Both the position numbers and the translations under genes were made by a program. The notes beneath the pieces are model-generated. The model saw only the letters and a list, made by a program, of their open reading frames with translations, was not told where the DNA came from and did not search any database. A stretch of DNA of 42,097 bases, from NCBI GenBank assembly GCA_947460255.1, contig CANHIS010000022.1, positions 1 to 42,097 on the forward strand, in the 5' to 3' direction. The stretch comes from Bacteroidota bacterium. GTDB lineage: Bacteria; Bacteroidota; Bacteroidia; M30B66. Shown here in pieces: positions 14,737 through 30,482 of this stretch; the stretch's first letter is position 1, and the number at the start of each line of letters is the position of its first letter.

Positions 14737-14746
14737 CACATTCCGC

Positions 14747-15619: not shown

Positions 15620-16498
15620 ATGGAAAATATCAAAGACAACGAATTAATAGCGCTCATAAATCTTCTGGAAGATCCAGATGAAGAGATATTTAGCACCATT
15701 CGAGAGCGCATTCTATCGATGGGGGAAGAAGTGATTCCTGCTTTAGAAAATGTGTGGGAAAACACCTTCAACAACGTACTTCAAACCCGCATCGAAGACG
15801 TCATTCAAACAATTCAGTTCAACAACGTACTGGAAGAATTGAAGCTTTGGGCTGATACAGGTGGTGTTGACCTTTTGGCTGGGACTATGCTGGTTTCAAA
15901 ATACCAATATCCAGATTTGGATGAAGATCATGTACGAAAGCAAATAGAATTAATTCGACGTGATGTTTGGCTAGAACTTAACTCGAATCTCACTGCTTAT
16001 GAGAAAGTTAGGGTGATCAACCACATCCTATTTGATGTTTACACCTTTACAGGAAATACGACCAATTATCACGCACCACAAAATTCCTACATCAACAACG
16101 TAATTGAAAGCAAGCGTGGTAACCCATTGCTTTTGAGTATTCTGTATTCGATTATTGCACAAGGATTAAACATTCCAATTTACGGAGTGAATTTGCCCGA
16201 ACATTTTATTTTAGCCTACCGGGATGAATTTACGATACAACACGAAGAAGAAGAAGAGCCTATCTTATTTTATATAAATCCGTTTAGCCGTGGAGCTGTT
16301 TTCAGCAGAAGAGAAATAGATACATTTCTAAAACAATTAAAATTGGAGCAGAATCGGATTTTTTACGAAAGCTGTTCTAATGTCGATATAGTTTGTAGGC
16401 AGCTGAGAAATCTCATTGTAGCCTACGAAAAACTAGGCTATCCAAACAAGGTAGACGATTTGAAAAAGCTACTTAATGTTCTCAGTTACTCTGGTTGA
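15620..16498 (+). CDS. SirB1/transglutaminase-like protein
   Basis: 292 residues. The N-terminal third is helical and acidic (LEDPDEEIFSTIRERILSMGEEVIPALENVW), like a HEAT-type helical pair. The middle and C-terminal part matches the SirB1 family: YHAPQNSYINNVIESKRGNPLLLSILY, then IPIYGVNLPEHFILAYRDE, as in transglutaminase-like folds. The catalytic cysteine of true transglutaminases is not visible (the position is in NPLLLS), so it is probably non-enzymatic. Its function in Bacteroidota is unknown. Starts directly after the nucleoside phosphorylase and is presumably co-transcribed; overlaps the convergent gene at 16486 by 13 nt. Confidence 0.75.
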   Translation: MENIKDNELIALINLLEDPDEEIFSTIRERILSMGEEVIPALENVWENTFNNVLQTRIEDVIQTIQFNNVLEELKLWADTGGVDLLAGTMLVSKYQYPDLDEDHVRKQIELIRRDVWLELNSNLTAYEKVRVINHILFDVYTFTGNTTNYHAPQNSYINNVIESKRGNPLLLSILYSIIAQGLNIPIYGVNLPEHFILAYRDEFTIQHEEEEEPILFYINPFSRGAVFSRREIDTFLKQLKLEQNRIFYESCSNVDIVCRQLRNLIVAYEKLGYPNKVDDLKKLLNVLSYSG

Positions 16499-17190
16499 TT
16501 CCTTTTTGATTTTCTCCTAACATATTGAGGAAGTCGGATTTTTTTTCCTCTAGTTGGATATTTTTTAAGGATCAATTTCGAGACTTCATCCGGCGCTTCA
16601 GAGCACTTCCTTTGCCAACCATCCGTGGGATTTAACTTACGGTAAAAGAAAAACGACCCAGTTTGGAGTGCGTCCACTGGAGCTAATATTAAGGTGAAAA
16701 TTTCTGTATACAAGGTGGTATATCCGAAACTTTCAAAATCACTCCAAGCATAAAATATCCGCTCGGTTTTTCGATTGATTCTTCTTTCCAATTGAACCGA
16801 ATCACAATTAATTTCAGTGATTTTTCCTTTAGAAGGCATGGCTGTAGTATCGCCCTTTAGCCTAAACAACAAAGTGTTCCTCAATCGAAAAATGGGTTTC
16901 CGCTTAATAGTTGGGTGGAAGAACTCCATTTGGTAAATGGTTGATTTTAATTGTTCTCTTGCTGGATCATCGAGCAGAAAGCCATATACATCGGAAGTGG
17001 AAATTTCATATTCATGGGTATCGCTTAAATCCAACACCCTGAAAACAATCATACTGTCGTTTGAAGAAAGTATAATACAATCGATTACTTGGTTGTCTTC
17101 ACGCAAAAAAATATGGTCCTGAGCCATCAATTCTCCATGAAGAAAAAGCGGTCCAACAATTAAAAACAGATATCTAAAAAATACTGGCAT
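16486..17190 (-). CDS. Exported protein of unknown function
   Basis: 234 residues from the ATG at 17190, preferred over a TTG at 17202 that lies on the putative -7 box. Signal peptide MPVFFRYLFLIVGPLFLHGELMAQ. The mature protein has two similar beta segments: DNQVIDCIILSSNDSMIVFRVLD and GKITEINCDSVQLERRI, a pattern seen in exported proteins that carry SH3-like repeats. The C-terminus is very basic (KKYPTRGKKIRLPQYVRRKSKRNQ). No family recognised. Confidence 0.7.
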   Translation of the reverse strand: MPVFFRYLFLIVGPLFLHGELMAQDHIFLREDNQVIDCIILSSNDSMIVFRVLDLSDTHEYEISTSDVYGFLLDDPAREQLKSTIYQMEFFHPTIKRKPIFRLRNTLLFRLKGDTTAMPSKGKITEINCDSVQLERRINRKTERIFYAWSDFESFGYTTLYTEIFTLILAPVDALQTGSFFFYRKLNPTDGWQRKCSEAPDEVSKLILKKYPTRGKKIRLPQYVRRKSKRNQPE

Positions 17191-17199
17191 CAAGAATTG

Positions 17200-17207
17200 C
17201 AAATTTA
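17200..17207 (-). promoter_or_regulatory. Putative -7 box (TAAATTTG) for the exported unknown
   Basis: TAAATTTG on the minus strand, ending 9 nt before the ATG at 17190, which would give an almost leaderless message. No TTG found at the right distance. Confidence 0.35.
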
Positions 17208-17246
17208 CGTTGAAAGAGGCTCAGGACTTTGTAAATTCGGGACCTG

Positions 17247-17744
17247 ATGAAAGGCAGATTAATTTTAGATTCCCGCAAAGTTAAACAGAAGCTTCAGCGG
17301 ATGGCGCTTCAGATTCATGAACGCAATCATGATCAACGTATTATCTTGGTTGGAATTCAAGGTGGAGGTTTTCAATTAACCGATATGTTAGCCACTTATC
17401 TAGAAGAATTTAGTGGGAAAAGCCACGCCACCCAAGCAATTTCGATCAATAAGTTAAACCCATTAGAAATTGTTCCTCAAACAGATTTATCTGCTGAAAC
17501 ACTGAAGGGCGCTGTGGTGATTTTGATTGATGATGTACAAAATTCTGGTCGCACAATGATGTATGCGATTAGGCATTTCTTGCAATTCGAAGTGCAATCA
17601 ATCCAAACTTGTGTCTTAGTTGATCGTGGGCACAATCAATTTCCAGTGCATTCGGATTTCGTAGGATTGTCGTTATCGACCACTTTACAGAACCATGTAT
17701 CGGTCGAATTTTCTGCCAATGAAGCAGAAGTTTATTTAGGTTGA
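17247..17744 (+). CDS. Phosphoribosyltransferase, PyrR-like
   Basis: 165 residues. The type I phosphoribosyltransferase PRPP loop VILIDDVQNSGRT spans 91-103, and VGIQGGGFQLTDML near 35-48 is the pyrophosphate loop region. CVLVDRGHNQFPVHSDFVGLSL near the C-terminus resembles PyrR, the pyrimidine-operon regulator with uracil phosphoribosyltransferase activity. Whether it binds RNA, makes UMP, or does both cannot be judged; no pyr genes are adjacent. The 3' end overlaps the convergent shikimate kinase by 13 nt. Confidence 0.8.
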   Translation: MKGRLILDSRKVKQKLQRMALQIHERNHDQRIILVGIQGGGFQLTDMLATYLEEFSGKSHATQAISINKLNPLEIVPQTDLSAETLKGAVVILIDDVQNSGRTMMYAIRHFLQFEVQSIQTCVLVDRGHNQFPVHSDFVGLSLSTTLQNHVSVEFSANEAEVYLG

Positions 17745-18256
17745 TCGGCAGGTAAAATCCGCTTCATTTCGACAATTATTTCTTCAAAGCTCAATCGATG
17801 CGGCTCAATTCTATGTGGAATTTTATCATAACAAGATTTCCTAGATTCAATAAGTGATCGTAGCGATTCAACCATATTGTTTTCGTTGATCAGAGGACGC
17901 GCTCCAAGCTCAGCTTGCTCTAAACGCCGAAGAATCATGCCTTCTAGAACATCTAAAAAAACACAAGTTCCATGTTGAAGCATCCAAGTTAAGTTGTCTT
18001 CAAAACAAGGTGTTCCTCCTCCACAAGACACAACGGTATCATCCTCAAAATTGATCTTTCTCAATGATTCAGCCTCCTTTTTCCGAAAAACCTCGTCGGA
18101 ATGCGCTGAAATCCAATGTGCAGGAGAATTTCCTGTATCATCCAAAATCTGAATATCTAGATCTATAAACTTGAATTTCAACTTGTTGGCAATCTTTTTT
18201 CCAAGTGTACTTTTACCACTGCCAGGTAAACCGCAAATGAAAAGAGTACGTGGCAC
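17732..18256 (-). CDS. aroK: Shikimate kinase
   Basis: 174 residues from the GTG at 18256. The open frame runs back to 18358, but that region is the tRNA-Leu gene on the other strand, so a longer start is unlikely; a TTG at 18268 is the only close alternative. P-loop GLPGSGKST sits at residues 9-17, the shikimate-binding aspartate in FIDLDIQIL, the GGGT motif in CGGGTPCFED, and the lid arginine in ARPLI. It phosphorylates shikimate with ATP in the chorismate pathway. Length fits AroK. The non-ATG start may keep translation low. Confidence 0.85.
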   Translation of the reverse strand: MPRTLFICGLPGSGKSTLGKKIANKLKFKFIDLDIQILDDTGNSPAHWISAHSDEVFRKKEAESLRKINFEDDTVVSCGGGTPCFEDNLTWMLQHGTCVFLDVLEGMILRRLEQAELGARPLINENNMVESLRSLIESRKSCYDKIPHRIEPHRLSFEEIIVEMKRILPADQPK

Positions 18257-18284
18257 TTGTCGATTCAATTTTTTTCTATTTTTG
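18257..18284 (+). promoter_or_regulatory. tRNA-Leu promoter (TTG-N17-TATTTTTG)
   Basis: TTG at 18257-18259, TATTTTTG at 18277-18284 with a 17-nt spacer; the tRNA begins 13 nt after the -7 box. The TTG directly abuts the start codon of the divergent shikimate kinase. Confidence 0.6.
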
Positions 18285-18296
18285 CCATCCCTAAAT

Positions 18297-18379
18297 GCCC
18301 AGGTGGTGAAATTGGTAGACACGCTACTTTGAGGGGGTAGTGAGCTCAGCTTGTGCAAGTTCGAGTCTTGTTCTGGGCA
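18297..18379 (+). tRNA. tRNA-Leu (GAG anticodon)
   Basis: The cloverleaf can be folded by hand: acceptor GCCCAGG pairs with TCTGGGC (one G-T), D stem GTG/CAC, anticodon stem CTACT/GGTAG around loop TTGAGGG (anticodon GAG), long variable arm with GAGC/GCTT stem, T stem GCAAG/CTTGT with TTCGAGT loop, and discriminator A at 18379. The long variable arm is typical of tRNA-Leu. CCA is not encoded. It reads CUC and CUU codons. The tRNA lies between the divergent shikimate kinase start and the convergent ompH end. Confidence 0.95.
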
Positions 18380-18386
18380 CTTGGTT

Positions 18387-18423
18387 AACAGCCGGAGATT
18401 TATTTTCCGGCTGTTTTGTTTTT
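18387..18423. terminator. Bidirectional terminator shared by tRNA-Leu and ompH
   Basis: A 10-bp perfect stem AACAGCCGGA / TCCGGCTGTT with a 9-nt loop and T-rich flank (TTGTTTTT, to 18423) on the plus strand. The left arm and loop start the 3' side of the ompH gene: its stop codon (18402-18400) lies in the loop, and its final codons (TAGK) form the right arm. On the minus strand the tract after the stem is TAACC, poor in T, so it acts best for the tRNA. Confidence 0.8.
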
Positions 18424-19002
18424 AGCGTAATCTGCATTTAAAGCGTCAAGCATATCCTTAGAAATGTCGAGCGCTGGATTGGTGTACCAGATTTGTCCAC
18501 CTGGAATATAGGAAATGACGTAACTGAAGTTGTTCTTTTTTGCGTAATCCTTTAGAAATGCCTCTACATTATCGAAAATTCTCTTGTTAACTCCAGCTTC
18601 TTTCGACTGAAGATCGTCGGTAAGTTGTTGCTCAAGCTGCATTAATTCCTGCTGCCTTCTTCCAAGTTTTTGTTCGCGAGATTCGCGCTCGGTAATGGTC
18701 AAAAATTCGGCACGTTGCTGGAATTCTTGGACATCTTTCTGGAATTTCTTCTGCTCTCCAACTAATCTGTCTTCAGCATTTTTCATTTCGGCCTCGATGG
18801 CAATTTTCTCCACTTTAAACAGTTCGTAATTCTCGCGTACAGTATCGGAATTGAAGTAGGCTATTCTAAGGTTTGAGCTTGCTTCGGCTACATTGTCAGC
18901 AGCAGATTTACCACCTCCCGATTTTCCGGAAAAGTGCAAAGCGAATAAAACGACAACTGCCATGGTGAGCAGTACATTGAAGATCAGATTGATATTTTTC
19001 AT
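18400..19002 (-). CDS. OmpH/Skp family periplasmic chaperone
   Basis: 200 residues. An N-terminal hydrophobic segment (LIFNVLLTMAVVVLFALHFS) acts as signal anchor or signal peptide, followed by a Ser/Gly-rich linker. The OmpH domain begins LRIAYFNSDTVRENYELFKV (about residue 46) and continues as a long coiled coil of charged heptads (about residues 65-130). It ends with the beta strand pattern FSYVISYIPGGQIWYTNPALDISKDML, as in Skp proteins. Role: holding outer-membrane proteins in the periplasm. The retained membrane segment without a clear cleavage site suggests an anchored form. Confidence 0.85.
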   Translation of the reverse strand: MKNINLIFNVLLTMAVVVLFALHFSGKSGGGKSAADNVAEASSNLRIAYFNSDTVRENYELFKVEKIAIEAEMKNAEDRLVGEQKKFQKDVQEFQQRAEFLTITERESREQKLGRRQQELMQLEQQLTDDLQSKEAGVNKRIFDNVEAFLKDYAKKNNFSYVISYIPGGQIWYTNPALDISKDMLDALNADYAKNKTAGK

Positions 19003-19018
19003 AGCGATTAACAGTTGC

Positions 19019-19026
19019 CAAATATA
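19019..19026 (-). promoter_or_regulatory. Putative -7 box (TATATTTG) for ompH
   Basis: TATATTTG on the minus strand, 16 nt upstream of the ATG at 19002; no TTG at the ideal position. Confidence 0.45.
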
Positions 19027-19087
19027 GACAAAGCCTTTATCTGTCCATCTCTGGTATTTTCATATTCTTAGGTCACGTTGCTTCCTT

Positions 19088-19095
19088 TACATTTG
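19088..19095 (+). promoter_or_regulatory. Putative -7 box (TACATTTG) for the ECF sigma/FecR operon
   Basis: TACATTTG ends 8 nt before the ATG at 19104; nearly leaderless. No good TTG upstream, which may mean an alternative sigma factor or activator is involved. Confidence 0.45.
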
Positions 19096-19103
19096 CAAGT
19101 GAA

Positions 19104-19712
19104 ATGGAAGAACCAGATCTGATTCGAAAAATCCGCACAGGAGATGAGATGGCCTTCGAAAAGTTGTTTCGACTTTTCTATGAAGCTCTTTGTCGATATG
19201 CGCAAAGCATGGTGAATGAGCCTGAATTGGCGGAGGAAATCGTTCAAGATATGTTCGTTCAGCTTTGGGAAAAACGCCAAAGCTTAGATCTCCACACAGG
19301 TATTCGTCCTTACCTGTATAAGGCAGTTCACAACCGCTGCCTCAATCAGATTCAGCATAAAAAAGTACGTGTACTTCATCAACAGGAAGTCTTAAAAACT
19401 TTCTCAGATATAACGCAGCCTGCATCTAGAGCCGAATTCGGCGAGTTAAAAGGGAGATTCAACAAAGCCCTTTTAAAACTTCCCGAAGAATGCAGAAAGG
19501 TGTTCAAGCTCAGTCGAGAAAATGAGTTTTCCTACCGCGAAATTGCTGATTTCTTAGGTATTTCGATCAAAACAGTAGAGAACCAAATGGGAAAAGCCTT
19601 GCGTATTATGAGAGATGAATTGAGAGACTTTCTTCCATTGATTTCCATTGTGGTTGGCTCTACATTTTTTTTCATATCCCACGTAGGGGTAATTATCATG
19701 TTAACGGTCTAA
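19104..19712 (+). CDS. ECF RNA polymerase sigma factor with hydrophobic C-terminal tail
   Basis: 202 residues. Region 2 is clear (AFEKLFRLFYEALCRYAQSMV, then AEEIVQDMFVQLWEKR), and region 4 has LLKLPEECRKVFKLSRENEFSYREIADFLGIS followed by KTVENQMGKALRIMRDEL. This is the Bacteroidota sigma-70-like ECF type that pairs with FecR. The last 27 residues after region 4 (FLPLISIVV..., ending MLTV) are strongly hydrophobic and long enough to cross a membrane. The FecR anti-sigma gene begins 10 nt downstream. Target promoters are unknown; the operon and the 23.7-kb repeat gene are natural candidates. Confidence 0.9.
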   Translation: MEEPDLIRKIRTGDEMAFEKLFRLFYEALCRYAQSMVNEPELAEEIVQDMFVQLWEKRQSLDLHTGIRPYLYKAVHNRCLNQIQHKKVRVLHQQEVLKTFSDITQPASRAEFGELKGRFNKALLKLPEECRKVFKLSRENEFSYREIADFLGISIKTVENQMGKALRIMRDELRDFLPLISIVVGSTFFFISHVGVIIMLTV

Positions 19713-19722
19713 TTGAAACAAG

Positions 19723-20742
19723 ATGCAATCAAATCAACAACCTTCTGATGAGCTGATCGCCCGATATTTGGCCGGTGAAGCATCCGCAAACGAACGGACG
19801 GAGGTTGAATTATGGGCAAATGACAGTGAAGAAAATGCGACAGAACTCAAAAGATTACAGCAAATCTTCCATACGCCTTCAAAAGCTGAAACTCAAACCT
19901 ACAATACAGATGCAGCGTGGAAGAAAGTTAAACCGCGGCTAACGCCGGATGAAGTTCCAGTTGTTCAACTCCATCCAAAGAAATCAAATAAACGTTGGAT
20001 TGCACTTGCAGCAGCTTCCATTGCCATTTTCGCTGGATTATCTGTGATTTTCAACAAAGGAAACACCCCTGAAATAGCCTACAATCAGACCATTGAAAGC
20101 GGAAACTCACCGAAAGAAGTTGTACTTCCCGACAGCTCTATTGTGATGTTGAAACCACAATCTACTTTAAGTTATGTTGAAGGATTTGAAGGTGATGAGC
20201 GACGATTAAGGTTAGAAGGAAGCGCTCGATTTGTAGTGAGAAAAAATCCAGCTAAACCTTTTATCGTTGAAAGCCGTGGTGCTTATGTTCGCGTTTTAGG
20301 AACAACGTTCTTGATCGAAAATTCTCGCAGTAAAAATGAAACAGTAGTTCGCGTAGAAGAAGGGAAAGTTCTGCTTTCTGATGAACTAACAAATCAAGCG
20401 AAAGATGATTCTTCGGCGGTAGTCTTGGTAGCCGGAAAATCAGGAAGCATCAGCGATGAACATCAAGTTCAGGTAAAATCGATCGATCCAATAGAAGCCG
20501 CATTTTCTTTCGATCAAACCATCGTATTCGAAAATACTGACCTAAAAAGCGCCGTAGGACTACTGTCCAAATTCTTTGGAAAGGAAATCCAATTAGGTTC
20601 TGAAAATATTGCAAACTGTCGACTTACGGCTACTTTCCGTCATCAAAGCCTTCAGGAAATCTTGCAAATCATTGCGACAACTTTCAATTTGGAAGTGAAG
20701 GAAGAAAATGGAGTGCGCATCATTTCAGGAAATGGATGTTAG
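19723..20742 (+). CDS. FecR-type anti-sigma factor
   Basis: 339 residues. A cytoplasmic N-terminal part (about 1-88) is expected to bind the sigma factor, followed by one membrane helix at 91-110 (WIALAAASIAIFAGLSVIF). The periplasmic FecR domain spans about 118-215 (SPKEVVLPDSSIVMLKPQSTL, then RVLGTTFLI). A C-terminal DUF4974/STN-like domain spans about 265-339 (ENTDLKSAVGLLSKFFGKEI, ending LQEILQIIATTFNLEV). In FecAIR-type systems FecR contacts the STN domain of an outer-membrane transducer. Here the only STN domain is on the next gene, whose start overlaps this stop by 11 nt, so coupled translation and direct contact are likely. Confidence 0.9.
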   Translation: MQSNQQPSDELIARYLAGEASANERTEVELWANDSEENATELKRLQQIFHTPSKAETQTYNTDAAWKKVKPRLTPDEVPVVQLHPKKSNKRWIALAAASIAIFAGLSVIFNKGNTPEIAYNQTIESGNSPKEVVLPDSSIVMLKPQSTLSYVEGFEGDERRLRLEGSARFVVRKNPAKPFIVESRGAYVRVLGTTFLIENSRSKNETVVRVEEGKVLLSDELTNQAKDDSSAVVLVAGKSGSISDEHQVQVKSIDPIEAAFSFDQTIVFENTDLKSAVGLLSKFFGKEIQLGSENIANCRLTATFRHQSLQEILQIIATTFNLEVKEENGVRIISGNGC

Positions 20743-22651
20743 AAAACTTTTGATTTTTCTTTTGCTCCTGAGCCCATCCTTGAGCGCTCAAGACAATCCG
20801 TTGAACCGCAGAATTTCAATTCAACTGCAAAATGTTACCCTGCAAGATGCGCTCAAGGAAATTTCGATCAAGGGCCGACTTCTATATTCGTACAACACTG
20901 GAGCAATCGACCTCAACAAAAGAATTAGTATCAATGCAAGCAGGAAATCGGTTGAGTATTGTTTACAGAGCATCCTTGGAAAGGATTTTAAATTGAGGTC
21001 CGGAGGAAATCATGTGATTATTGTTCCTCAAAAAATCCCAGTCAACAAAGAATCTACTGAAAGTTACGTGCTAGAAGGTGTGGTAACCGATGCCATCACT
21101 GGGAAAGCAGTGAAATATGCGTCCGTGTATGAAGCGGGGAGACTCAAAAGTGCACTCACAGATCAAAATGGGAAATACGCCATCAACTTAGGCAGAGAGC
21201 CCGAATACGTTCAATTGTTGGTGAGCAGAAAAAGTTATCGGGATACAGTGATCACCATTCGTCCGAAAAAATCTGCACAAGTAAATGTGAGGATTCGGCC
21301 TGCCACCATTGCGGAACTAGCGATTCTTCCAGCGGAAATTCCGGATCAATTGGCATCAAATGGATTGTTCAAGGCTGTAATTTCTGATGAACAATTACGC
21401 GTTACCGAAAATCTCGCTTGGTTTGAAGAAAGGGTTTTTCAAATCGGATTTTTACCCACACTGGGCACCAATCGCAAGTTCGGCGGATTGATCGAAAACC
21501 ACTTTTCTTTCAATGTATTGGGAGGATATTCGATGGCATTAAGTGGGGCCGAGATGGCTGGAATTTTTAACATCACCAGACGAAATGTGAAGGGCTTCCA
21601 ACTGGCAGGATTCATGAATATCACAGGAGGTTCTACCTCAGGATTTCAGTTTGCCGGATTCATGAACAATAACATCGGTGCAGTGCGCGGAGTTCAAACT
21701 GCCGGATTTTACAATTTATCGCTCGACTCCCTCAACGGAGTTCAAACTGCAGGCTTCTTTAATATGGCAAGAGGACGAGTGAAGGGTATTCAAACAGCTG
21801 GTTTTGCTAACATTTCGGGGAAGGAATTGGATGGTGTTCAGTTGGCAGGTTTCCTGAATGTGAGCGGTAAAGAAGTTGATGGTGTGCAAGTTTCAGGCTT
21901 CGCCAATGTGGCATCGGGCGACTTCCGCGGAGCGCAGATTGGAGGATTTTTCAACCTCAATACCGGCGACATGAAAGGCGCACAGATCAGCGGTGGGATA
22001 AATATTGTTGCCGACAGTTCTCAAACAATCCAGATCGGAACCATTGCGAATTTTGCAGGCACAATTAAAGGTTCGCAAATTTCCTCTCTTTTTAATATTG
22101 CCGGAGAAGTGGGTGGATCTCAAATTGGATTGATCAACATCTGCGATACTGTTAGCGGTTTCACATTTGGCTTGATCAGCTTAGTAAGAAAAGGATACCA
22201 CAAACTTGAGTTTTCGACCGGAGATGCTAACCAGCTATTGGTGAACTTCAGAACTGGAACCTATCGGTTCTATAATATCCTTAGCGCGGGAATGTTTAAG
22301 GTTACCGACCCAAGTTTCGCCACTTTTGGTTACGGAATTGGAACAGAATTTCGAGCCCGAAAAAAATTCTTCTTCGGATTAGATGTGGTGGCTTCCACAG
22401 TTTTCAATGAAGCATTTCAAATTAATGTAATCCCCGACTTATGGGGAAAAAGCAACTTATATGTTGGTTGGCGGCCTTGGAAAGGTGTTCAACTTTTTGC
22501 TGGTCCAACATTTCACGCTTACCGAGTCGATCAGAAAAATCTTCAAGGTTTAAGACCTGGAATCGAACGAGATGATTTGTTTTTCTACAATGAACCCACA
22601 GCTCAATATTTTGGCTGGATGGGTTGGCAGGCAGGAATTCGACTCTTTTAA
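20732..22651 (+). CDS. STN + carboxypeptidase-regulatory protein with sixteen-residue GxQxAGFxN repeats
   Basis: 639 residues from the ATG at 20732 inside the FecR 3' end; this gives the signal peptide MDVRKLLIFLLLLSPSLSAQ. Domains in order: STN secretin/TonB signalling domain (about 27-100), carboxypeptidase-regulatory beta-sandwich (about 112-190), a linker with RVFQIGFLPTLGTN (about 234-246), then sixteen-residue repeats from 272 to 431, then shorter 15- and 14-residue units to about 476. A C-terminal beta-strand-rich domain of about 160 residues ends in GWQAGIRLF, an aromatic end like those of outer-membrane barrels. STN plus carboxypeptidase-regulatory domains normally precede a TonB plug and barrel; none is present here. 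Likely the outer-membrane partner of FecR, with the repeats acting as sensor or scaffold (inference). Confidence 0.85.
   Translation: MDVRKLLIFLLLLSPSLSAQDNPLNRRISIQLQNVTLQDALKEISIKGRLLYSYNTGAIDLNKRISINASRKSVEYCLQSILGKDFKLRSGGNHVIIVPQKIPVNKESTESYVLEGVVTDAITGKAVKYASVYEAGRLKSALTDQNGKYAINLGREPEYVQLLVSRKSYRDTVITIRPKKSAQVNVRIRPATIAELAILPAEIPDQLASNGLFKAVISDEQLRVTENLAWFEERVFQIGFLPTLGTNRKFGGLIENHFSFNVLGGYSMALSGAEMAGIFNITRRNVKGFQLAGFMNITGGSTSGFQFAGFMNNNIGAVRGVQTAGFYNLSLDSLNGVQTAGFFNMARGRVKGIQTAGFANISGKELDGVQLAGFLNVSGKEVDGVQVSGFANVASGDFRGAQIGGFFNLNTGDMKGAQISGGINIVADSSQTIQIGTIANFAGTIKGSQISSLFNIAGEVGGSQIGLINICDTVSGFTFGLISLVRKGYHKLEFSTGDANQLLVNFRTGTYRFYNILSAGMFKVTDPSFATFGYGIGTEFRARKKFFFGLDVVASTVFNEAFQINVIPDLWGKSNLYVGWRPWKGVQLFAGPTFHAYRVDQKNLQGLRPGIERDDLFFYNEPTAQYFGWMGWQAGIRLF
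21545..22024 (+). repeat. Ten exact 48-bp (16-residue) units in the STN-repeat protein
   Basis: Residues 272-431 divide into ten consecutive units of exactly 16 residues. Consensus: G-[VIFA]-Q-x-[AS]-G-F-x-N followed by seven variable residues with a small or polar core. Units begin at residues 272, 288, 304, 320, 336, 352, 368, 384, 400 and 416. The units after 431 become 15, 15 and 14 long and change to GxQIGLxN. Such short glycine- and Asn-rich, strictly periodic units usually stack as a beta-solenoid. DNA identity between units is low, so they are old rather than recently expanded. Confidence 0.9.
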
Positions 22652-22718
22652 AAACTTAATTCAAGAAATCTTCACACATCAATCACATTATCAAAGGATT
22701 TAGAATCATCTAAACATG

Positions 22719-22732
22719 TATGTAGGTACATA
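22719..22732. promoter_or_regulatory. Palindrome TATGTAGGTACATA upstream of the pirin gene
   Basis: TATGTA and TACATA are perfect inverted 6-bp arms separated by GG. The site sits 10 nt upstream of the -7 box at 22742, in the region where a regulator could overlap the -33 element. Binding protein unknown. Confidence 0.35.
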
Positions 22733-22741
22733 TATATTGAA

Positions 22742-22749
22742 TACTTTTG
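22742..22749 (+). promoter_or_regulatory. Putative -7 box (TACTTTTG) for the pirin gene
   Basis: TACTTTTG matches TAnnTTTG and ends 8 nt before the ATG at 22757, so the message would be nearly leaderless. The presence of an own promoter suggests that pirin is not only read from the sigma-factor operon, whose last gene ends 105 nt upstream. Confidence 0.5.
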
Positions 22750-22756
22750 TTCAACT

Positions 22757-23635
22757 ATGGAAACAAATAAACCCCGCAGCGTTCAAGCTTTGCTTCACGC
22801 TAAGGAATACCCGATGGGAAAACTTCGGGTTCGTCAGCCATTCCCTTCACATTATGTTGATTATCCGGATCCATTCATCCTTTTGCATCATGCAGACATG
22901 AAGATTTCGGAGTTTTTCGATCCCAAAAACGATGGTGTTGGCCCGCATCCTCACCGCGGTTTCTCGCCTGTTACGTTCATCTTCAAAGGTGGAGTTCATC
23001 ACCGCGATAGTTTCGGTAACTCATCTGTCGTACTCGAAGGTGGTGTGCAATGGATGAATGCAGGAAGAGGAATCATCCACAGCGAGCGCCCACCAGAGAA
23101 TATCCACGATTTGGGCGGCAGGCAAGAAATCATCCAACTTTGGGTGAATATGCCTGCAGAAAACAAAATGGACACTCCTGCCTATTATCCACTAAGTGCA
23201 GAAGAAATGCCTGTGATTGAAGACCCAAATGGGAAGTATATTATTCGTGTTGTTACAGGAAACCTTGGTGACAAAAAAGGGAAGATCCCTACCCTATCGC
23301 CTGTAAACTCTGCTACAATCGAAGCACAAGCAGGCGCTGAAGTAAATGTCGATCTTCCAGAAAATCATACTTCTATCCTGTATTTGTTGGATGGTGAAAT
23401 TGAAATTCCGGGATATGGACCGGCAGAAATGCACCATGCAGTTCTGTTCAAAAACGACGGCAACAGCATCACTTTCACTGCAAAGAAAAACACACGAATG
23501 CTCCTGCTGAGCGGACTTCCACTCAATGAACCAATGGCATCTCATGGTCCTTTTGTGATGAACAATGAAACCCAATTGCTCGAAGCGATGCGGGATTATC
23601 AATTGGGAAAAATGGGAATTTTGATTGAAGAATAA
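22757..23635 (+). CDS. Pirin family protein
   Basis: 292 residues, bicupin fold. The N-terminal cupin has all four metal ligands: H64 and H66 in HPHRGF, and H108 and E110 in IIHSERP. The C-terminal cupin (about 180-285) lacks such ligands, as in other pirins. Bacterial pirins bind iron and some have quercetin dioxygenase activity; others act as redox-sensitive protein partners. The role here is undecided. It lies inside the signalling and TonB region between the two repeat proteins but has its own -7 box, so it could be a bystander. Confidence 0.9.
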   Translation: METNKPRSVQALLHAKEYPMGKLRVRQPFPSHYVDYPDPFILLHHADMKISEFFDPKNDGVGPHPHRGFSPVTFIFKGGVHHRDSFGNSSVVLEGGVQWMNAGRGIIHSERPPENIHDLGGRQEIIQLWVNMPAENKMDTPAYYPLSAEEMPVIEDPNGKYIIRVVTGNLGDKKGKIPTLSPVNSATIEAQAGAEVNVDLPENHTSILYLLDGEIEIPGYGPAEMHHAVLFKNDGNSITFTAKKNTRMLLLSGLPLNEPMASHGPFVMNNETQLLEAMRDYQLGKMGILIEE

Positions 23636-23672
23636 TTTTTTCAATCAGGCATAGGGGTAAATCTATGCTAGC

Positions 23673-23723
23673 ATGTCAAAAGGGAAACATACACCATGAA
23701 AACTGTATTTTCCCTTTTGACAT
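23673..23723 (+). promoter_or_regulatory. Perfect 15-bp inverted repeat around the start codon of the second repeat protein
   Basis: ATGTCAAAAGGGAAA (23673-23687) and TTTCCCTTTTGACAT (23709-23723) are exact reverse complements separated by 21 nt. The loop (23688-23708) holds the ATG at 23696, so in mRNA the initiation site would sit in the loop of a strong hairpin. The right arm lies in the signal-peptide codons. Possible meanings are translational control, an RNA-binding protein site, or, if read as DNA, a pair of operator half-sites. No -7 box was found just upstream. Confidence 0.6.
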
Positions 23724-24910
23724 TTTTGTTTTTGTGCACATCATTAGAGGCACAAACCGATTCCATAAAATCAACCACGCAGCCATTCCAAATGAGCTTC
23801 ATTCCGCCCATGAGTACCAACGGAATAGCCAATCAAAATAGCACCAACAATTTATCAATCAATATTATAGCAGGTTATTCGGGCGGATTGGAAGGCATCG
23901 AAATGGGCGGATTAGCCAATGTGATAAAGCACGATGCGAAAGGTGTTCAACTTTCAGGGTTCACCAATGTAGTGGGAGGCAAAGTGGAAGGCGTTCAGTT
24001 AAGTGGTTTTGCCAACATTAACAAAGGATCAACCAAAGGAATTCAAATGGCGGGCTTCCTTAACATGGTGAACGACTCCAGCTCAGGAATTCAATCAGCA
24101 GGATTTGCGAATATCAACAATGGAAGCTTCTCAGGCTGGCAAAATGCTGGGTTCGTGAACTTGAACCAAGGGAAACTTCAAGGTGTGCAAACAGCTGGTT
24201 TCACTAATGTGACTGCTGATAGCATCGAGGGCGTGCAAGCAGCAGGTTTTTACAATCAAACCAATGGCAGCTTAAATGGTGTGCAAGCAGCAGGCTTCAT
24301 GAACCTGTGCAATGAAACAGTAGAAGGCATTCAAGCTTCAGGATTTTTGAATGTGACAAAACGCTTGAGAGGCTTGCAAATTGGTTTTATCAACTTCGCC
24401 GACACCTTAGAAAAAGGCACTCCAATCGGCTTCCTAAGTTTCATCAGAAAAGGTGGATTTAAAGCTGTAGAACTCACAGCCAATGAGACATTCCCAATGG
24501 GCATTCAACTCAAAACAGGTTCAGACATTTTCTACAACATCTTCGCACTTTCAGCCAAAACAGGCAACGATTTTTACTGGGCTTGGGGAACTGGCTTCGG
24601 CTCGAACCTAAAAAGCAAAGGAAAATTCAGGATTAACCTCGACTTTACTGCAATGCATGTAAATGATGGAACGGTTTATACCGATCACCTGAACATTCAC
24701 GGGAAAACCCAATTAGGCTTCACTTGGCAAGCAGCCAAACATTTTGCTATATCAGCAGGCCCAAGCTTTAACTGCTTGGTAGTAAACAAGATGAACAGTG
24801 AAGGCATCCAAAATGACGCATCCGTTGCGCCATACTCAGTACTAGATAAGATGTATAACGATACACGAGTAGTGCTTTGGCCTGGCGCATTCGTGAGCGT
24901 AAGATTCTAA
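23696..24910 (+). CDS. Exported sixteen-residue-repeat protein (paralogue of the repeat half of the STN protein)
   Basis: 404 residues with signal peptide MKTVFSLLTFLFLCTSLEAQ. Directly after the mature N-terminus come FQMSFIPPMSTNG and SINIIAGYSGGLEGIEMGG, which line up with FQIGFLPTLGTN and SFNVLGGYSMALSGAEMAG in the STN-repeat protein. Repeats run from residue 67 to 210 and change at about 226 to GLQIGFINFAD, followed by a C-terminal beta domain of about 150 residues that ends in ARVVLWPGAFVSVRF-like aromatic strands. It has neither STN nor carboxypeptidase-regulatory domain. Probably an outer-membrane or surface partner. Its start codon sits in a hairpin loop (see the inverted repeat at 23673). 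Confidence 0.8.
   Translation: MKTVFSLLTFLFLCTSLEAQTDSIKSTTQPFQMSFIPPMSTNGIANQNSTNNLSINIIAGYSGGLEGIEMGGLANVIKHDAKGVQLSGFTNVVGGKVEGVQLSGFANINKGSTKGIQMAGFLNMVNDSSSGIQSAGFANINNGSFSGWQNAGFVNLNQGKLQGVQTAGFTNVTADSIEGVQAAGFYNQTNGSLNGVQAAGFMNLCNETVEGIQASGFLNVTKRLRGLQIGFINFADTLEKGTPIGFLSFIRKGGFKAVELTANETFPMGIQLKTGSDIFYNIFALSAKTGNDFYWAWGTGFGSNLKSKGKFRINLDFTAMHVNDGTVYTDHLNIHGKTQLGFTWQAAKHFAISAGPSFNCLVVNKMNSEGIQNDASVAPYSVLDKMYNDTRVVLWPGAFVSVRF
23894..24325 (+). repeat. Nine exact 48-bp (16-residue) units in the second repeat protein
   Basis: Residues 67-210 split into nine units of exactly 16 residues starting at 67, 83, 99, 115, 131, 147, 163, 179 and 195, with the pattern G-[VIW]-Q-x-[AS]-G-F-x-N (first unit G-I-E-M-G-G-L-A-N). 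The next unit (211-225) is 15 long. The unit length and consensus equal those in the STN-repeat protein. Confidence 0.9.
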
Positions 24911-24990
24911 ACTTCTAAAATCATCATTTTCAATTGGCAGCCTAATGGCTGATAGGAAACATATTGCCCAATTTCAAATCATAAAACAAC

Positions 24991-27324
24991 ATGAAAAACT
25001 TCCTTTTTCTAATCTCCTTCTATTTAATATTCAGCACCTTACAAGCTCAGTCGCTCACCCAAACTTTGCGAGGCGAAATACGTGATCAAATCTCAGAAGC
25101 CCCAATTCCAGGTGCAACTGTTGTGCTTCAACCGAGCGAACCCTTGATCGGAACAGTTTCTAATTTGGATGGTCAATTTCGACTCAATGCTGTCCCCATC
25201 GGTCGCTATACATTGTTGGTAAAGATGCTTGGTTATCAGGATTTTAATTTACCAAACGTAGTGATTGGATCAGGAAAAGAAGTGGTCCTTCAAATTTCAC
25301 TTTCGGAGACTACAGTTGAGATTTCTACCGTCGAAATATCAGCCGAAGGCACGAATAAGGCAGAAGCCATTAATGAACTTGCCACCGTGAGTGCTCGTCA
25401 ATTTTCGGTGGAAGAAACCAAAAGATATGCAGGTGCATTGAACGACCCAGGAAGAATGGCGCAAAGCTTCGCTGGGGTAACCGTAAACTCCGACGGTAGC
25501 AATGAAATCGTTGTGCGAGGAAATTCTCCGCGAGGCCTACTTTGGCGGATGGAAGGCATCGAAATTCCGAATCCAAATCACTTTTCCAATCAAGGTTCGT
25601 CTGGTGGCGCGATATCAATGCTGAGCAACAACATGATGGCCAATTCGGATTTCTTTACTGGTGCATTTCCAGCCGATTATGGAAATGCTGCTTCTGGTGT
25701 GTTCGACATCCGCTTGCGAAAAGGCAACAACGAAAAACGCGAATATGCGATTCAGGCGGGAGTAATTGGAAGTGACATAGCCCTCGAAGGGCCTTTCAAG
25801 AAAGGAAAAGCAGGATCTTACTTGGTAAATTATCGCTACTCATCTCTGTCGTTGCTGCAAAAACTCGGCGTTGAAATCGTGGGCGATGCCATTCCTGTGT
25901 TTCAGGATTTGTCGTTTAACATAAATCTTCCTACAGAAAAAGCTGGGCAGTTTGGGCTCTTTGGGATTGGTGGAATCAGCAGCATCAACCAAGAATACTT
26001 CGGGAAACAGAGCAATTACAAAGACCGATTCAGAACTTACTTAGGCGTTGCTGGACTCACACATAGCTACATGTTCAATGACAAAACTTGGTTGAAAACG
26101 ATCGTTGCAGCCACCGGAACAGCCAATCAGTACAAAGGGATTAGTCTCGACACCAACGATGTAGTTCAACATACTGCAGTGGATGAAGGACACCAAAACT
26201 ATGCGCATCGTGTTGCAAGCACTTTGAATCACAAGATCAACCGAAAGAACAGCATCAGGACTGGATTCATTGGAAGCTTGCTGAATTTCAATCTAAAAAC
26301 CATCGTTTTCGACAATGAATCGGATCAATACCGCACTGATATTGATCAAGTAGGCACCACCGGACTTCTTCAGGGATTCTTTAATTGGCAACACCGAATT
26401 AATGAAACAACAACTTTAAATACAGGTCTTCATTACAGCAGATTTTTGCTCAATGGCCAACAATCGCTCGAGCCAAGAGCAGGAATTAAATGGAATTTCA
26501 ACGGTTCTCAAATTCTAAGTGCTGGGTTTGGCGTGCATTCAAGATTGGAAGATCCTGCAGTATATTTCGCTAGAATTTCTGCTGCAAATAATCAAGTTTC
26601 CACGCCGAATACAAACCTCGGATTTTCAAAAGCGAGACATTATGTGGTTGGGTACGAAACTATGCTTTCAAAACACTTGCATTTGAAAACGGAATTATAC
26701 TACCAAGACTTGTACGATGTACCGGTGGAAGCTGGCCAAAAAAGCGCAAGATCAACCATCAATATGAGCCAAGGCTTTTCAATGTTTGCAGCCGAAAACT
26801 CAGGTGCAGGTCGCAATTACGGAGTCGAGATCACCTTCGAGAAGTATTTTTCAAACCAATACTACTTTCTGATAACGAATTCATTCTTTGATTCCCGTTA
26901 CCGCGGATCAGATCAGGTTTGGCGAAATACAGCATTCAACAACGGTTACGCTGGAAGTTTCTTGGCAGGAAAAGAATTTGAGATTCGGAAAAAGAATACG
27001 CTAAGCTTAAACGTGAGAGTAATTTATTCTGGTGGAAGGAAATATACACCAGTTTTACTGGAAGAGTCAGTGGCTTCTGGCGAAGGCGTTTACGATGACC
27101 AAAATGCATTTTCAGCTTCAGCCGCCGATTATTTTCGAACCGATTTAGGCATTAGCTACACGATCAACCGAAAAAAGACTGCCAGCGTATGGAAAATAGA
27201 CATTCAAAACGTGAGCAATAGACTCAACGAATTCAACCGCTATTTCAACACCGACAGCCAACAGGAAGAAATTCAAACTATGACTGGAATTATCCCGACG
27301 CTGAGCTACAGAATCGAATTTTAA
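24991..27324 (+). CDS. TonB-dependent receptor without STN domain
   Basis: 777 residues. Signal peptide MKNFLFLISFYLIFSTLQAQ, then a carboxypeptidase-regulatory domain (about 25-110: GEIRDQISEAPIPGATVVL), a TonB plug (about 130-235: NEIVVRGNSPRGLLWRMEGIEIPNPNHF), and a long outer-membrane barrel to the end. It finishes with SYRIEF, an aromatic C-terminal residue typical of barrel proteins. The ligand is unknown, and no SusD homologue is adjacent. The 80-nt gap upstream contains a small CAGCC/GGCTG hairpin without a T-run. It lies after the sigma/FecR/repeat cluster and may supply the TonB-gated transport part that the STN-repeat protein lacks (inference). Confidence 0.85.
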   Translation: MKNFLFLISFYLIFSTLQAQSLTQTLRGEIRDQISEAPIPGATVVLQPSEPLIGTVSNLDGQFRLNAVPIGRYTLLVKMLGYQDFNLPNVVIGSGKEVVLQISLSETTVEISTVEISAEGTNKAEAINELATVSARQFSVEETKRYAGALNDPGRMAQSFAGVTVNSDGSNEIVVRGNSPRGLLWRMEGIEIPNPNHFSNQGSSGGAISMLSNNMMANSDFFTGAFPADYGNAASGVFDIRLRKGNNEKREYAIQAGVIGSDIALEGPFKKGKAGSYLVNYRYSSLSLLQKLGVEIVGDAIPVFQDLSFNINLPTEKAGQFGLFGIGGISSINQEYFGKQSNYKDRFRTYLGVAGLTHSYMFNDKTWLKTIVAATGTANQYKGISLDTNDVVQHTAVDEGHQNYAHRVASTLNHKINRKNSIRTGFIGSLLNFNLKTIVFDNESDQYRTDIDQVGTTGLLQGFFNWQHRINETTTLNTGLHYSRFLLNGQQSLEPRAGIKWNFNGSQILSAGFGVHSRLEDPAVYFARISAANNQVSTPNTNLGFSKARHYVVGYETMLSKHLHLKTELYYQDLYDVPVEAGQKSARSTINMSQGFSMFAAENSGAGRNYGVEITFEKYFSNQYYFLITNSFFDSRYRGSDQVWRNTAFNNGYAGSFLAGKEFEIRKKNTLSLNVRVIYSGGRKYTPVLLEESVASGEGVYDDQNAFSASAADYFRTDLGISYTINRKKTASVWKIDIQNVSNRLNEFNRYFNTDSQQEEIQTMTGIIPTLSYRIEF

Positions 27325-27383
27325 TTTTCTTCGAGGGATTGAATTTTCTTAGTCTGGATGCGTAAGAATTCCAAACAATACCT

Positions 27384-27413
27384 TTGTAATGAGGATTTGT
27401 TAGCTTAGATTTG
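27384..27413 (+). promoter_or_regulatory. Bacteroidetes-type promoter (TTG-N19-TAGATTTG) for the CotH operon
   Basis: TTG at 27384-27386 and TAGATTTG at 27406-27413 with a 19-nt spacer. Predicted start near 27419 gives a leader of about 29 nt. A second TACCTTTG at 27379-27386 overlaps the TTG but lacks its own -33 element. Confidence 0.65.
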
Positions 27414-27447
27414 ACATTCGGTTCATTTTGAGTTTTATTAATCTGCT

Positions 27448-30400
27448 ATGAAAATCACATTACTCACTTGCTTCACAGCCCTGCTGCTTTTGCTGGGAAG
27501 CAAATCGTCGGCACAGGTGCTGATTAACGAAGTTTCGGCATCAAACCGAACCAACATGGCAGACGATTTTGGTGAATTTGAAGATTGGGTTGAACTTTAC
27601 AATGCCGGAGCAGCAACGGTAGATATCAGCAACTTTTTTTTAAGTGATAATCCTACCAATCCTACAAAATGGCAAATTCCAGCGGGAACTTCCATTACAC
27701 CAGGTCAGCACCGTTTGTTCTTCTGTTCAGGAAGAGATCTAGACAATGGATTGGCGATGCACACCAATTTTAAACTCACGCAAGGCAACGGTGAAACGGT
27801 ATTGTTTTCAGATAATGGAGGCGCTTTGGTAGATCAAATTGTACTGCAACCAACATTGGTAAATCATAGCCGTGGGCGTTTCCCAGATGGCGGAGCTTGG
27901 AGAGTTTACACCACACCAACCGCAGGAACAGCCAATGGCGCAACGGCCTACACCGATTATGCCGAAAAACCACAAATGAATTTGGCTGCAGGATTCTACG
28001 GTGGAGCGCAATCAGTTACCATTTCAGCTACCGATAATGGTGCAACCATTCGATACACGCTCAACGGCGCCGAACCAACTGCCACATCACCGGCTTACAC
28101 AGGCCCAATTGCGGTGAACAACTCAACTGTAATTCGCGCAAAGGCTTTTCCTCCAGCTGGGTCACCTTTAACCGCAAGTTTCACAGAATCAAATTCATAC
28201 TTGATCAACATTAACCACACAATGCCTGTTGCATCATTGATTTCGGATCAATACGATGAGTTGTTTGCAGGTGGTGGTTGGGGCGAAATCACTTCAGCAA
28301 TTGAATACTTTACTGAAGATGGCGTGCAACGTTTCGAAGCGTACGGAGAAGCCGATCCACACGGAAATGACAGCTGGGCATACGATCAAAAAGGGGTGGA
28401 TTTTGTTGTGAGAGATCAATACGGTTATGGCGACGAGGTGGATTACCAGATATTTCCAACGAAACCTCGTCAAGAATTTCAACGCTTCATGTTTAAAGCT
28501 GGAGCTTCAGACAATTATCCATTTAACAACGGTGGCCCAGGCGGAAGTTGTCACTTGCGCGATGCGTTTATTCAATCATTGGGAGAACGTGCCAACCTAA
28601 ATGTAGATTTCAGAACCAACGATCATTGCGTGGTTTATATCAATGGAGAATATTGGGGATTGTATGAAATCCGTGAAAAGGTAAATGATCCAGATTTTAC
28701 AGACTATTATTACAACCAAGAAGAGGAAGACCTTGATTTTCTTTCTTACTGGGGAGGATTAAATGTACGTTATGGCTCACCGGACGATTGGAACGACCTG
28801 TATGCTTACATCATGGCAAACGATTTATCACAACCTGCCAATTACAATGCTGTAGATGCTCGATTGGACATTGCTTCCGTTATCGATTACATGATCATTA
28901 ACACCTGGTCGGTGAACTCAGATTGGATCAACTGGAACACCATGTGGTGGAGAGGACGTGGCACTCCTGCTGTAAAATGGAAGTACGTGCTTTGGGATAT
29001 GGACAATACGTTCAATCTTGGACAGAATTTCTCAGGTTGGGAAACCACCGATTTCAATGCCGATCCTTGTGATTTAGAAGACAATCCAGGATTCGTGAAT
29101 GCTGGCCCTAATGAAGGTCACTTGGATATGTTTGGAAGATTGATGGCCAATCCTGATTTCAAACAGCGTTTTGTAAACCGCTACTCAGAACTCACAAACA
29201 CTTACTTATCATGCGATTATGCCTTAGCGCATTTAGATAGCATTGTAAACCACATTACACCAGAAATGCCAGCGCAAATTGCTCGTTGGGGTGGTTCCGT
29301 AGCTGATTGGGAAGGAAATCTTGATTATATCAGAGGTCAAATCACAGGTCGATGCCAATTCCTTGAAGAGTCTGGTATTGAAGATTGTTATGAAGTGAAT
29401 GGTCCTTGGGACTTAGCTTTTAATGTTTCGCCAGCAGGCGCAGGAACCATCCGATTCAATGAGCTAACAATTCCCACTTATCCATGGTCGGGCTCATATT
29501 TTGGCGGTGTAGAAGGAGATTTAAATGCAACTCCTGCAACTTCTGCTTATGAATTTTGGTATTGGGAAGTTTTTTATTCGGACCTCAACTCCGACAGTAC
29601 AAATGCGCTCAACAGTTTCATGATTGAAGCAGCCGACAGTATTGTGGCGCATTTCAGATTGATTGAAACCCATGAAATTGTATTCTTGGTTGATCCTCCC
29701 AATTCAGGAAATATCTCCATCAATGGAGTTACACCCGGCAGTTACCCGTACGCTCAGATCTACAATGCAGATTTCAATATTTTCATGACTGCCACACCGG
29801 CAACAAATTTCGATTTCATCAATTTCACCACTGTAGGCCACACCCTTACACCAGATCCCAACCTACCTACCAATTCATTTTTGGTTGATGTTCCTGATAC
29901 GATCATAGCTCACTTCAAGCCATTTCAAACTTGGTTCTTAACAGTAAAAACCGAGCCTCAATTAGCAGGTAAAGTGATGATTAATGGCGATTGGGTTGAT
30001 ATTTATCCAACAACAACTGAGTTTTTCGAAGGGGAGGCGATAACAACAGATGCCTTCCCATTTGAGAAATACCTATTCTCGCATTACACCTTGAATTACG
30101 GCACTTTGGACTTTGATTCAAGTCTTACCATAAACGGATTCTCGCTAGATACGACAGATACTTTGACTGCGCACTTCCTACTTAAAGAAGTGATTCCTCA
30201 AACAATGTATGTACCGTCAGGATTCACTCCAAATGGAGATGGTATCAACGATGTCTTCAAACCTTACCATACTGAAACGGTTGTTAATGGTAATGTGAGA
30301 ATTTTCAATCGTTGGGGAGAAGAAGTTTTTGTTTCAGAGAAGCTCGATTTCGAATGGGATGGCACCAAAAATGGCAAAATCATGCCTGATGATGTGTACT

Positions 30401-30474
30401 ATTTTGTACTCAACTATTACCTCGATTCCGATTACTTTGAAACCGTTCAAGGTAGAATTTCAATTTCACGATAA
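27448..30474 (+). CDS. T9SS-exported CotH-kinase protein with lamin-tail domain
   Basis: 1008 residues. Signal peptide to about residue 23. A lamin-tail domain follows (about 24-135: VLINEVSASN, FEDWVELYNAG), then a chitobiase C-terminal-like Ig domain (about 175-250: VTISATDNGATIRYTLNG). The CotH kinase domain spans about 255-640 (VVYINGEYWGLYEIREKV, and YVLWDMDNTFNLGQ with metal aspartates). Three InlB-type repeats of about 85-90 residues follow (about 650-915), each ending in D-[ST]-x3-AHF or similar. A type B T9SS sorting domain closes the protein (about 918-1008: YVPSGFTPNGDGINDVF, RIFNRWGEEVF). CotH proteins phosphorylate other secreted proteins in spore coats and eukaryotes; here surface phosphorylation or adhesion is inferred. 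Confidence 0.9.
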   Translation: MKITLLTCFTALLLLLGSKSSAQVLINEVSASNRTNMADDFGEFEDWVELYNAGAATVDISNFFLSDNPTNPTKWQIPAGTSITPGQHRLFFCSGRDLDNGLAMHTNFKLTQGNGETVLFSDNGGALVDQIVLQPTLVNHSRGRFPDGGAWRVYTTPTAGTANGATAYTDYAEKPQMNLAAGFYGGAQSVTISATDNGATIRYTLNGAEPTATSPAYTGPIAVNNSTVIRAKAFPPAGSPLTASFTESNSYLININHTMPVASLISDQYDELFAGGGWGEITSAIEYFTEDGVQRFEAYGEADPHGNDSWAYDQKGVDFVVRDQYGYGDEVDYQIFPTKPRQEFQRFMFKAGASDNYPFNNGGPGGSCHLRDAFIQSLGERANLNVDFRTNDHCVVYINGEYWGLYEIREKVNDPDFTDYYYNQEEEDLDFLSYWGGLNVRYGSPDDWNDLYAYIMANDLSQPANYNAVDARLDIASVIDYMIINTWSVNSDWINWNTMWWRGRGTPAVKWKYVLWDMDNTFNLGQNFSGWETTDFNADPCDLEDNPGFVNAGPNEGHLDMFGRLMANPDFKQRFVNRYSELTNTYLSCDYALAHLDSIVNHITPEMPAQIARWGGSVADWEGNLDYIRGQITGRCQFLEESGIEDCYEVNGPWDLAFNVSPAGAGTIRFNELTIPTYPWSGSYFGGVEGDLNATPATSAYEFWYWEVFYSDLNSDSTNALNSFMIEAADSIVAHFRLIETHEIVFLVDPPNSGNISINGVTPGSYPYAQIYNADFNIFMTATPATNFDFINFTTVGHTLTPDPNLPTNSFLVDVPDTIIAHFKPFQTWFLTVKTEPQLAGKVMINGDWVDIYPTTTEFFEGEAITTDAFPFEKYLFSHYTLNYGTLDFDSSLTINGFSLDTTDTLTAHFLLKEVIPQTMYVPSGFTPNGDGINDVFKPYHTETVVNGNVRIFNRWGEEVFVSEKLDFEWDGTKNGKIMPDDVYYFVLNYYLDSDYFETVQGRISISR

Positions 30475-30482
30475 TCAATTGT

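Follow-up and report, generated by a model that had tools for sequence, protein, structure and literature searches.

A Bacteroidota ECF sigma factor-FecR locus with its STN domain on a repeat protein, apart from the TonB-dependent receptor

We analysed a stretch of 42,097 nucleotides (nt) from a Bacteroidota bacterium (contig CANHIS010000022.1), here called "the window", whose numbering is used for all coordinates. The locus under study, at 19104-27324, encodes an extracytoplasmic function (ECF) sigma factor, a FecR anti-sigma factor, a protein that joins an STN domain to an array of 16-residue repeats (STN-REP), a pirin, a second repeat protein (REP2) and a TonB-dependent receptor (Table 1). 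A listing of open reading frames (ORFs) confirmed this content and order, including the position of the pirin and the STN-less repeat protein between STN-REP and the receptor, as they had been given in a first-pass annotation made from the sequence alone. In the textbook surface-signalling system the sensor is the transporter. In many Bacteroidota a repeat protein, probably anchored in the outer membrane, and not a nutrient transporter carries the domain that would contact the anti-sigma factor.

Table 1. Features of the sigma-FecR-STN-REP locus in window coordinates
Feature	Position	Strand	Evidence or remark
ECF sigma factor, 202 residues	19104..19712	+	TIGR02985, 171.8 bits (cut-off 126.4); Sigma70_r2 and r4_2
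Predicted sigma promoter before FecR, TAGGGGTA-N13-CGGTC, 11/13	19684..19709	+	Inside the sigma gene, at its 3' end
FecR anti-sigma factor, 339 residues; one predicted transmembrane helix; FecR and FecR_C domains	19723..20742	+	PF04773, 4e-16; PF16344, 2e-12
STN-REP, 639 residues, proposed transducer	20732..22651	+	ORF; profile matches; AlphaFold2 model; relatives
STN domain, residues ~22-106	20795..21049	+	Pfam STN in 28/44 relatives; fold match to PupB signalling domain
Carboxypeptidase-regulatory (transthyretin-like) domain, residues ~113-190	21068..21301	+	PF13715, 9e-9; 5aq0, E 5e-4
Nine perfect 16-residue repeats, residues 288-431, in an array at residues ~272-486	21593..22024	+	Repeat count; NF047436
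C-terminal domain, residues 489-638; eight predicted strands; last residue Phe	22196..22645	+	AlphaFold2 model; weak fold matches
Predicted sigma promoter before REP2, TAGGGGTA-N13-ATGTC, 12/13	23652..23677	+	Conserved in L022, L024 and L025
REP2, 404 residues; signal peptide, nine perfect repeats, C-terminal domain of STN-REP type, no STN	23696..24910	+	
TonB-dependent receptor, 777 residues; carboxypeptidase-regulatory domain, plug, barrel, no STN	24991..27324	+	

The sigma gene product is of the Bacteroidota ECF type, as judged by its match to the TIGR02985 family. Both domain matches of the FecR protein (PF04773 and PF16344) exceed their cut-offs, the solved putative anti-sigma structures 4m0n and 4m0h are relatives that cover its periplasmic part, and it is the sole FecR_C match in its own genome. 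The 11-nt overlap of the FecR and STN-REP genes reported in the first-pass annotation holds if STN-REP begins at the ATG at 20732, and becomes 35 nt if the longest ORF, which begins at 20708, is taken instead. The ATG at 20732 is the best start, and gives the signal peptide MDVRKLLIFLLLL. The library profile search for FecR, STN, carboxypeptidase-regulatory and plug domains that had been proposed earlier was run, and upheld the domain assignments.

Profile matches in relatives and a fold match place an STN domain within the sigma-FecR locus. Taken alone, the window STN-REP scores 23.1 bits against the Pfam STN profile (E 7e-5), below the cut-off of 28.4, and for this reason a search of its own genome with the STN profile returned no match. 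Among 44 relatives the STN domain is matched in 28 (best 7e-12) and the carboxypeptidase-regulatory domain in all 44, and a Plug domain is listed for none. The AlphaFold2 model of STN-REP (mean predicted local distance difference test score, pLDDT, 89.6; predicted template-modelling score 0.68) arranges the chain as an STN domain, a transthyretin-like domain, the repeat array and then eight longer strands. A Foldseek search with this model found the signalling domain of PupB (9cuv; probability 1.00, TM-score 0.65 on the target) and also returned transthyretin domains of carboxypeptidase D.

The repeats have the form G.Q..G..N, and both STN-REP and REP2 contain nine perfect 16-residue units in an uninterrupted run, whereas shuffled sequences gave a mean of 0.03 and a maximum of 2. 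By its profile score (38 bits against NCBIfam NF047436, cut-off 25) the STN-REP repeat is a member of LA_2272, a known family of surface repeats; REP2 scores 16.8 bits, below the cut-off. Each unit is modelled as two short strands with pLDDT ~97, and the array is probably a beta solenoid. The structure search matched no solved structure to the array with confidence, and sequence matches to Vtc1 look like chance. The C-terminal domain gave weak matches to the small outer-membrane barrels NspA, OprF and OmpX (E 0.015-0.09), and also to PagP; the model indicates that it is probably a small outer-membrane barrel, and that a TonB-type plug and barrel are lacking. In the predicted strand order the long loops fall on one side and the tight turns on the opposite one, and the last residue is aromatic, which suggests that the repeats hang from the small barrel into the periplasm. 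Thus the earlier claim that plug and barrel are replaced by a repeat array and a terminal beta domain stands with regard to the plug, but a small barrel is probably present at the C-terminus.

Profile matches and the structure search bore out that the receptor has a plug and barrel and lacks STN. The Plug profile falls just under its cut-off for the window receptor (E 1e-4) and matches 25 of 25 receptor relatives; the AlphaFold2 model of the receptor matches FepA, FpvA and BtuB at E ~1e-22 to 1e-24, and a sequence search of the PDB with the receptor found no match. Given the 80-nt gap between them, REP2 and the receptor are probably co-transcribed. Neither a SusD-type lipoprotein nor glycan enzymes occur among the neighbouring proteins scanned, which were a part of the window ORFs. 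A paralogue of the receptor subfamily lies elsewhere in the same genome (G000:C31:17936-20287; 909 bits against 1149 for the window receptor) with no STN-REP. Since the subfamily has further paralogues, linkage must be judged among orthologues.

STN-REP homologues are widespread in the class; among the named carriers are Spirosoma, Algoriphagus, Hymenobacter, Cnuella, Marinifilum and Shiella. In 71 of 73 loci (three of the 73 repeat a place already counted) the gene immediately upstream of STN-REP, in the same orientation, encodes FecR, and the sigma gene is in the fetched locus for 65 of these 71. FecR and STN-REP are encoded by separate genes in all loci read. To count neighbours we used 40 loci from other families that were fetched solely for encoding STN-REP, counting within the fetched stretch. 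There the sigma and FecR genes precede STN-REP almost always, the receptor subfamily is found in 24 loci, a second repeat protein in 14, and either or both in 33. The receptor is absent from the fetched stretch in the remaining 16, and is therefore not required as one half of the transducer. Its position varies, being downstream of the trio or divergent upstream of it, and in two genomes (G266 and G041) the repeat gene and receptor lie together on a contig other than that of the trio. Genes for DUF2807 (head GIN) lipoproteins are found near 25 of the 73 STN-REP loci, in comparison with 3 of 51 receptor loci that lack STN-REP. The gene-order comparison proposed in the first-pass annotation thus recovered conserved sigma-FecR-STN-repeat trios in relatives; judged by gene order, sigma, FecR and STN-REP are a conserved trio, and REP2 and the receptor are its frequent, mobile companions.

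Three observations concern the arrangement of these genes in individual relatives. On a Hymenobacter volaticus plasmid (L177, 1799-6221) the order is sigma, head GIN, FecR, a short ORF annotated as DUF4974 and a repeat protein; the short ORF is the STN-carboxypeptidase-regulatory part and the repeat protein is in a different frame, so that either STN-REP is truly split here or the reading frame has shifted. A Bacteroides ovatus plasmid (L178, 4986-6134) carries a repeat protein without STN, annotated as hypothetical, with no sigma or FecR gene nearby and flanked by genes for an AMP-binding protein and a fructose-bisphosphatase. In one family (f8; L062, L071, L073, L077 and L078) a very large ORF of 1444-1715 residues precedes the trio on the same strand.

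A search of upstream regions for spaced word pairs, made without a seed, returned one and the same pair in each of three gene sets (sigma, receptor and REP). This promoter-like element is strongly conserved, with the consensus TAGGGGTA-N13-TTGTC; the spacing is 13 in nearly all sites, which often lie 20-55 nt before the start codon. Of the sites in STN-REP loci that match at 11/13 or better, 112 of 143 precede module genes; with the reversed pattern, 4 of 58 do. The 112 stand before sigma (34), receptor (24), REP (20), FecR (19), DUF2807 (13) and STN-REP (2) genes. Of 54 genomes with the trio, 31 have exact sites, 53 in all against 8 for the reversed control; the 31 trio-free genomes, G086 among them, have none (Fisher p ~3e-8, computed on nearly these counts). 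Exact patterns miss orthologues with diverged promoters. Thirty-seven of the 53 exact sites are at the trio locus and 16 are elsewhere. Fifteen of the latter were read: they precede DUF2807 lipoproteins (4), a DUF4097 lipoprotein (1), barrel-like proteins of ~206-235 residues (5), a REP gene beside a receptor (1) and a secreted protein (1), and three look incidental. Distal copies of the element are thus, by this reading of sequence matches, mostly placed before envelope genes.

The window has two such sites (Table 1). The position of the FecR site is used likewise in 19 relatives, and the site is conserved in L023 and is 13/13 in L026, a family member that also has a 12/13 site before its receptor. 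One-mismatch sites elsewhere in the genome of the window (C50, C53 and C100) equal the reversed control (4 versus 4), have no convincing targets and were set aside. In L117 (9181-9786), L128 (9272-9877) and L144 (9131-9847), barrel-like proteins of ~200 residues with exact or near-exact elements are encoded between REP and receptor; that of L117 matches PagL weakly (E 5e-5). About one-fifth of the receptor loci without STN-REP nearby still carry the element before the receptor.

STN and receptor also occur joined. Because the STN-REP alignment is too diverged for a pattern scan of genome contigs, we used the receptor alignment, which ranks linked-type receptors first. Of 80 receptor loci in named genomes, 29 have STN-REP within 10 kb, and in four others (Pedobacter L154, Cyclobacteriaceae L156 and L157, and Fulvivirga L164) the STN domain is at the N-terminus of the receptor, whose gene immediately follows sigma-FecR. 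An STN domain as an N-terminal extension of the receptor is absent from the window and was found in these four relatives only. The fused form occupies two places in the receptor tree, and none of the loci examined has both a fused receptor and STN-REP. The fused Pedobacter locus has a 12/13 element before FecR; together with the sites of L026, this ties the joined and separated forms, as far as sequence matches indicate, to one promoter type. Genomes whose best receptor scores above ~985 bits have a full STN-REP in 37 of 43 cases, against 17 of 253 for the others, a difference that is inflated because the profile was built from linked receptors and the cut was chosen afterwards.

A natural deletion marks the limits of the module. 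A congener, G003 (locus L028, 7345-8904), shares 11659-19132, 22666-23731 and 27360-32501 of the window at 79-84% DNA identity. Two separate gaps remove sigma-FecR-STN-REP, leaving a 56-residue remnant of the end of STN-REP, and REP2-receptor. The REP2 promoter in G003 is without its TAGGGGTA half, and OmpH, the pirin and CotH are retained at 90-93% protein identity. This two-gap loss argues against membership of the pirin and CotH, which are almost confined to the family of the window and were rejected as parts of the system. Linkage, the common promoter element and the co-loss agree with the earlier proposal that the receptor and REP2 belong to the sigma/FecR module. After the receptor, at 27448-31448, the window encodes a CotH-kinase/LTD protein with a CHU_C tail and then a Por_Secre_tail protein, apparently type IX secretion cargo unrelated to the sigma module.

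The domains, the gene order, the conservation of the motif, its dependence on the trio and the co-loss can be seen in the sequence. We consider it likely that they reflect cell-surface signalling of the FecI/FecR type, with STN-REP as the transducer and a sigma factor that reads a TAGGGGTA-N13-TTGTC regulon. STN-REP would be anchored in the outer membrane by its small C-terminal barrel, with the STN domain placed to meet the periplasmic end of FecR, which would hold the ECF sigma factor; we infer both this membrane topology and the contact between STN and FecR. A changed state of STN-REP would lead to release or degradation of FecR, and the sigma factor would then transcribe from TAGGGGTA-N13-TTGTC promoters, the direction of signalling and the reading of the motif by this sigma factor being presumed. 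Its targets would be its own operon, REP2, the linked STN-less receptor, DUF2807 lipoproteins and barrels of ~200-235 residues; of the two window sites, one would serve FecR-STN-REP and the other REP2-receptor. FecR-type regulators of known systems are bound to the STN domain of the receptor already ahead of the signal (PMC7186176), and STN binding can shield the anti-sigma factor from proteolysis (PMC11637429). Carried over to the present locus in the simplest way, that task would fall to the STN of STN-REP.

Several facts weigh against this explanation. The regulon and the STN-FecR contact are sequence predictions throughout, and the best match behind the barrel assignment has an E value of 0.015. 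About half of the trio genomes have no exact site, and there the motif depends on weaker matches or fails. The two window sites at 11/13 or better are only slightly above the number in shuffles (mean below 1), so their weight comes from position and conservation. Finally, at one locus (L059) STN-REP has no recognised adjacent FecR. Alternatively, the element could belong to some other regulator, with STN-REP merely beside sigma-FecR, the tie between this sigma factor and the motif being a prediction drawn from sequence. We regard this alternative as very improbable, since the motif is absent from the 31 trio-free genomes and present at the trio operon itself, STN binds FecR in known systems (PMC7186176), and trio and companions were lost together in G003.

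What STN-REP responds to is a separate matter. The first-pass annotation read the locus as one transducer divided into a sensor and a transporter. On such a reading the STN-less receptor would bind and import a ligand and signal by contact to STN-REP and so to FecR, the two together doing what FecA does alone. The presence of the receptor subfamily near 24 of 40 trios, the co-occurrence of receptor orthologues with STN-REP (inflated as that figure is), the co-loss in G003 and the four STN-receptor fusions behind sigma-FecR, one of them with the element and none beside an STN-REP, give this idea some substance, and the fusions keep a transport-coupled signal possible. Yet 16 of 40 trios have no receptor nearby, membership in the regulon explains linkage and co-loss equally well, and STN-REP looks anchored in the outer membrane by itself; we therefore think a divided transducer rather unlikely, and the receptor is at least a predicted member of the regulon. 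STN-REP may sense by itself. It could respond to the state of the outer membrane or surface (envelope status, surface contact or outer-membrane protein assembly), with REP2, the DUF2807 proteins, the barrels and the receptor as a surface-remodelling output, like Dma. The predicted targets are all of the surface or envelope, none being catabolic, and would be better explained by remodelling of the surface or by envelope status than by the uptake of one nutrient; moreover, Dma proteins of the same phylum join an outer-membrane barrel directly to an anti-sigma domain (PMC13088901). No stress phenotype is known, and the receptor with its STN fusions points to ligand uptake as a possible input, so that we put this forward tentatively. 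It is a refinement of STN-REP as transducer, not a contradiction of it. With similar reserve, somewhat short of an even chance, we suggest a Bacteroidota-wide ECF class in which the state of a small outer-membrane barrel, relayed to FecR through a rigid STN-tipped repeat solenoid, and not the transport of a TonB ligand, would control a surface regulon of its own, recognisable by TAGGGGTA-N13-TTGTC.

In the open-licence literature we found no description of STN-repeat proteins, of LA_2272 or DUF2807 with sigma factors, or of the motif. Judged on those papers and on the family libraries, the combination, its breadth and the promoter element are apparently undescribed. The signalling domain is here detached from the transporter, and since relatives join STN to the same receptor subfamily, joined and separated forms can be compared. 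The element, with no exact copy in 31 trio-free genomes, is specific enough for the regulon to be predicted from sequence and for use in a reporter construct. A testable role is also offered for the repeat family and for DUF2807 neighbours that annotation has left hypothetical.

The system shares with FecAIR, FoxAIR and PupBIR (PMC11637429, PMC7186176) an ECF sigma factor, a FecR-type regulator with an STN-like C-terminal domain, an STN domain on the partner and autoregulation (predicted here); it differs in that a repeat protein with a small barrel carries the STN domain, which the TonB receptor of the locus lacks. Bacteroidota loci of the sigma-FecR-SusC kind, in which the receptor carries STN, use the same sigma and FecR families and are resembled by the four fused loci, whereas in the window STN is separated from the receptor, and SusD and glycan enzymes are lacking among the scanned neighbours. 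In PUMA3 (VreA-VreI-VreR) of Pseudomonas aeruginosa (PMC2729926), STN is likewise off the TonB receptor and beside an ECF sigma factor and anti-sigma factor, but VreA is small, mostly soluble and periplasmic, has no repeats, barrel or homologous target set, and ends in a TolA/TonB-like domain, in place of which STN-REP has a repeat array and a small barrel-like domain. Dma proteins of Bacteroides (PMC13088901) resemble the system in phylum, in the control, here proposed, of an ECF sigma factor by an outer-membrane barrel and in their surface-related output; there a single chain holds the anti-sigma domain, the tether and the barrel, whereas here FecR is separate and would be contacted by STN-REP. 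LA_2272 (NF047436) has in common the 16-residue type of repeat, and its model consists of the repeat only; the STN domain, the carboxypeptidase-regulatory domain and the FecR partner are additional in STN-REP.

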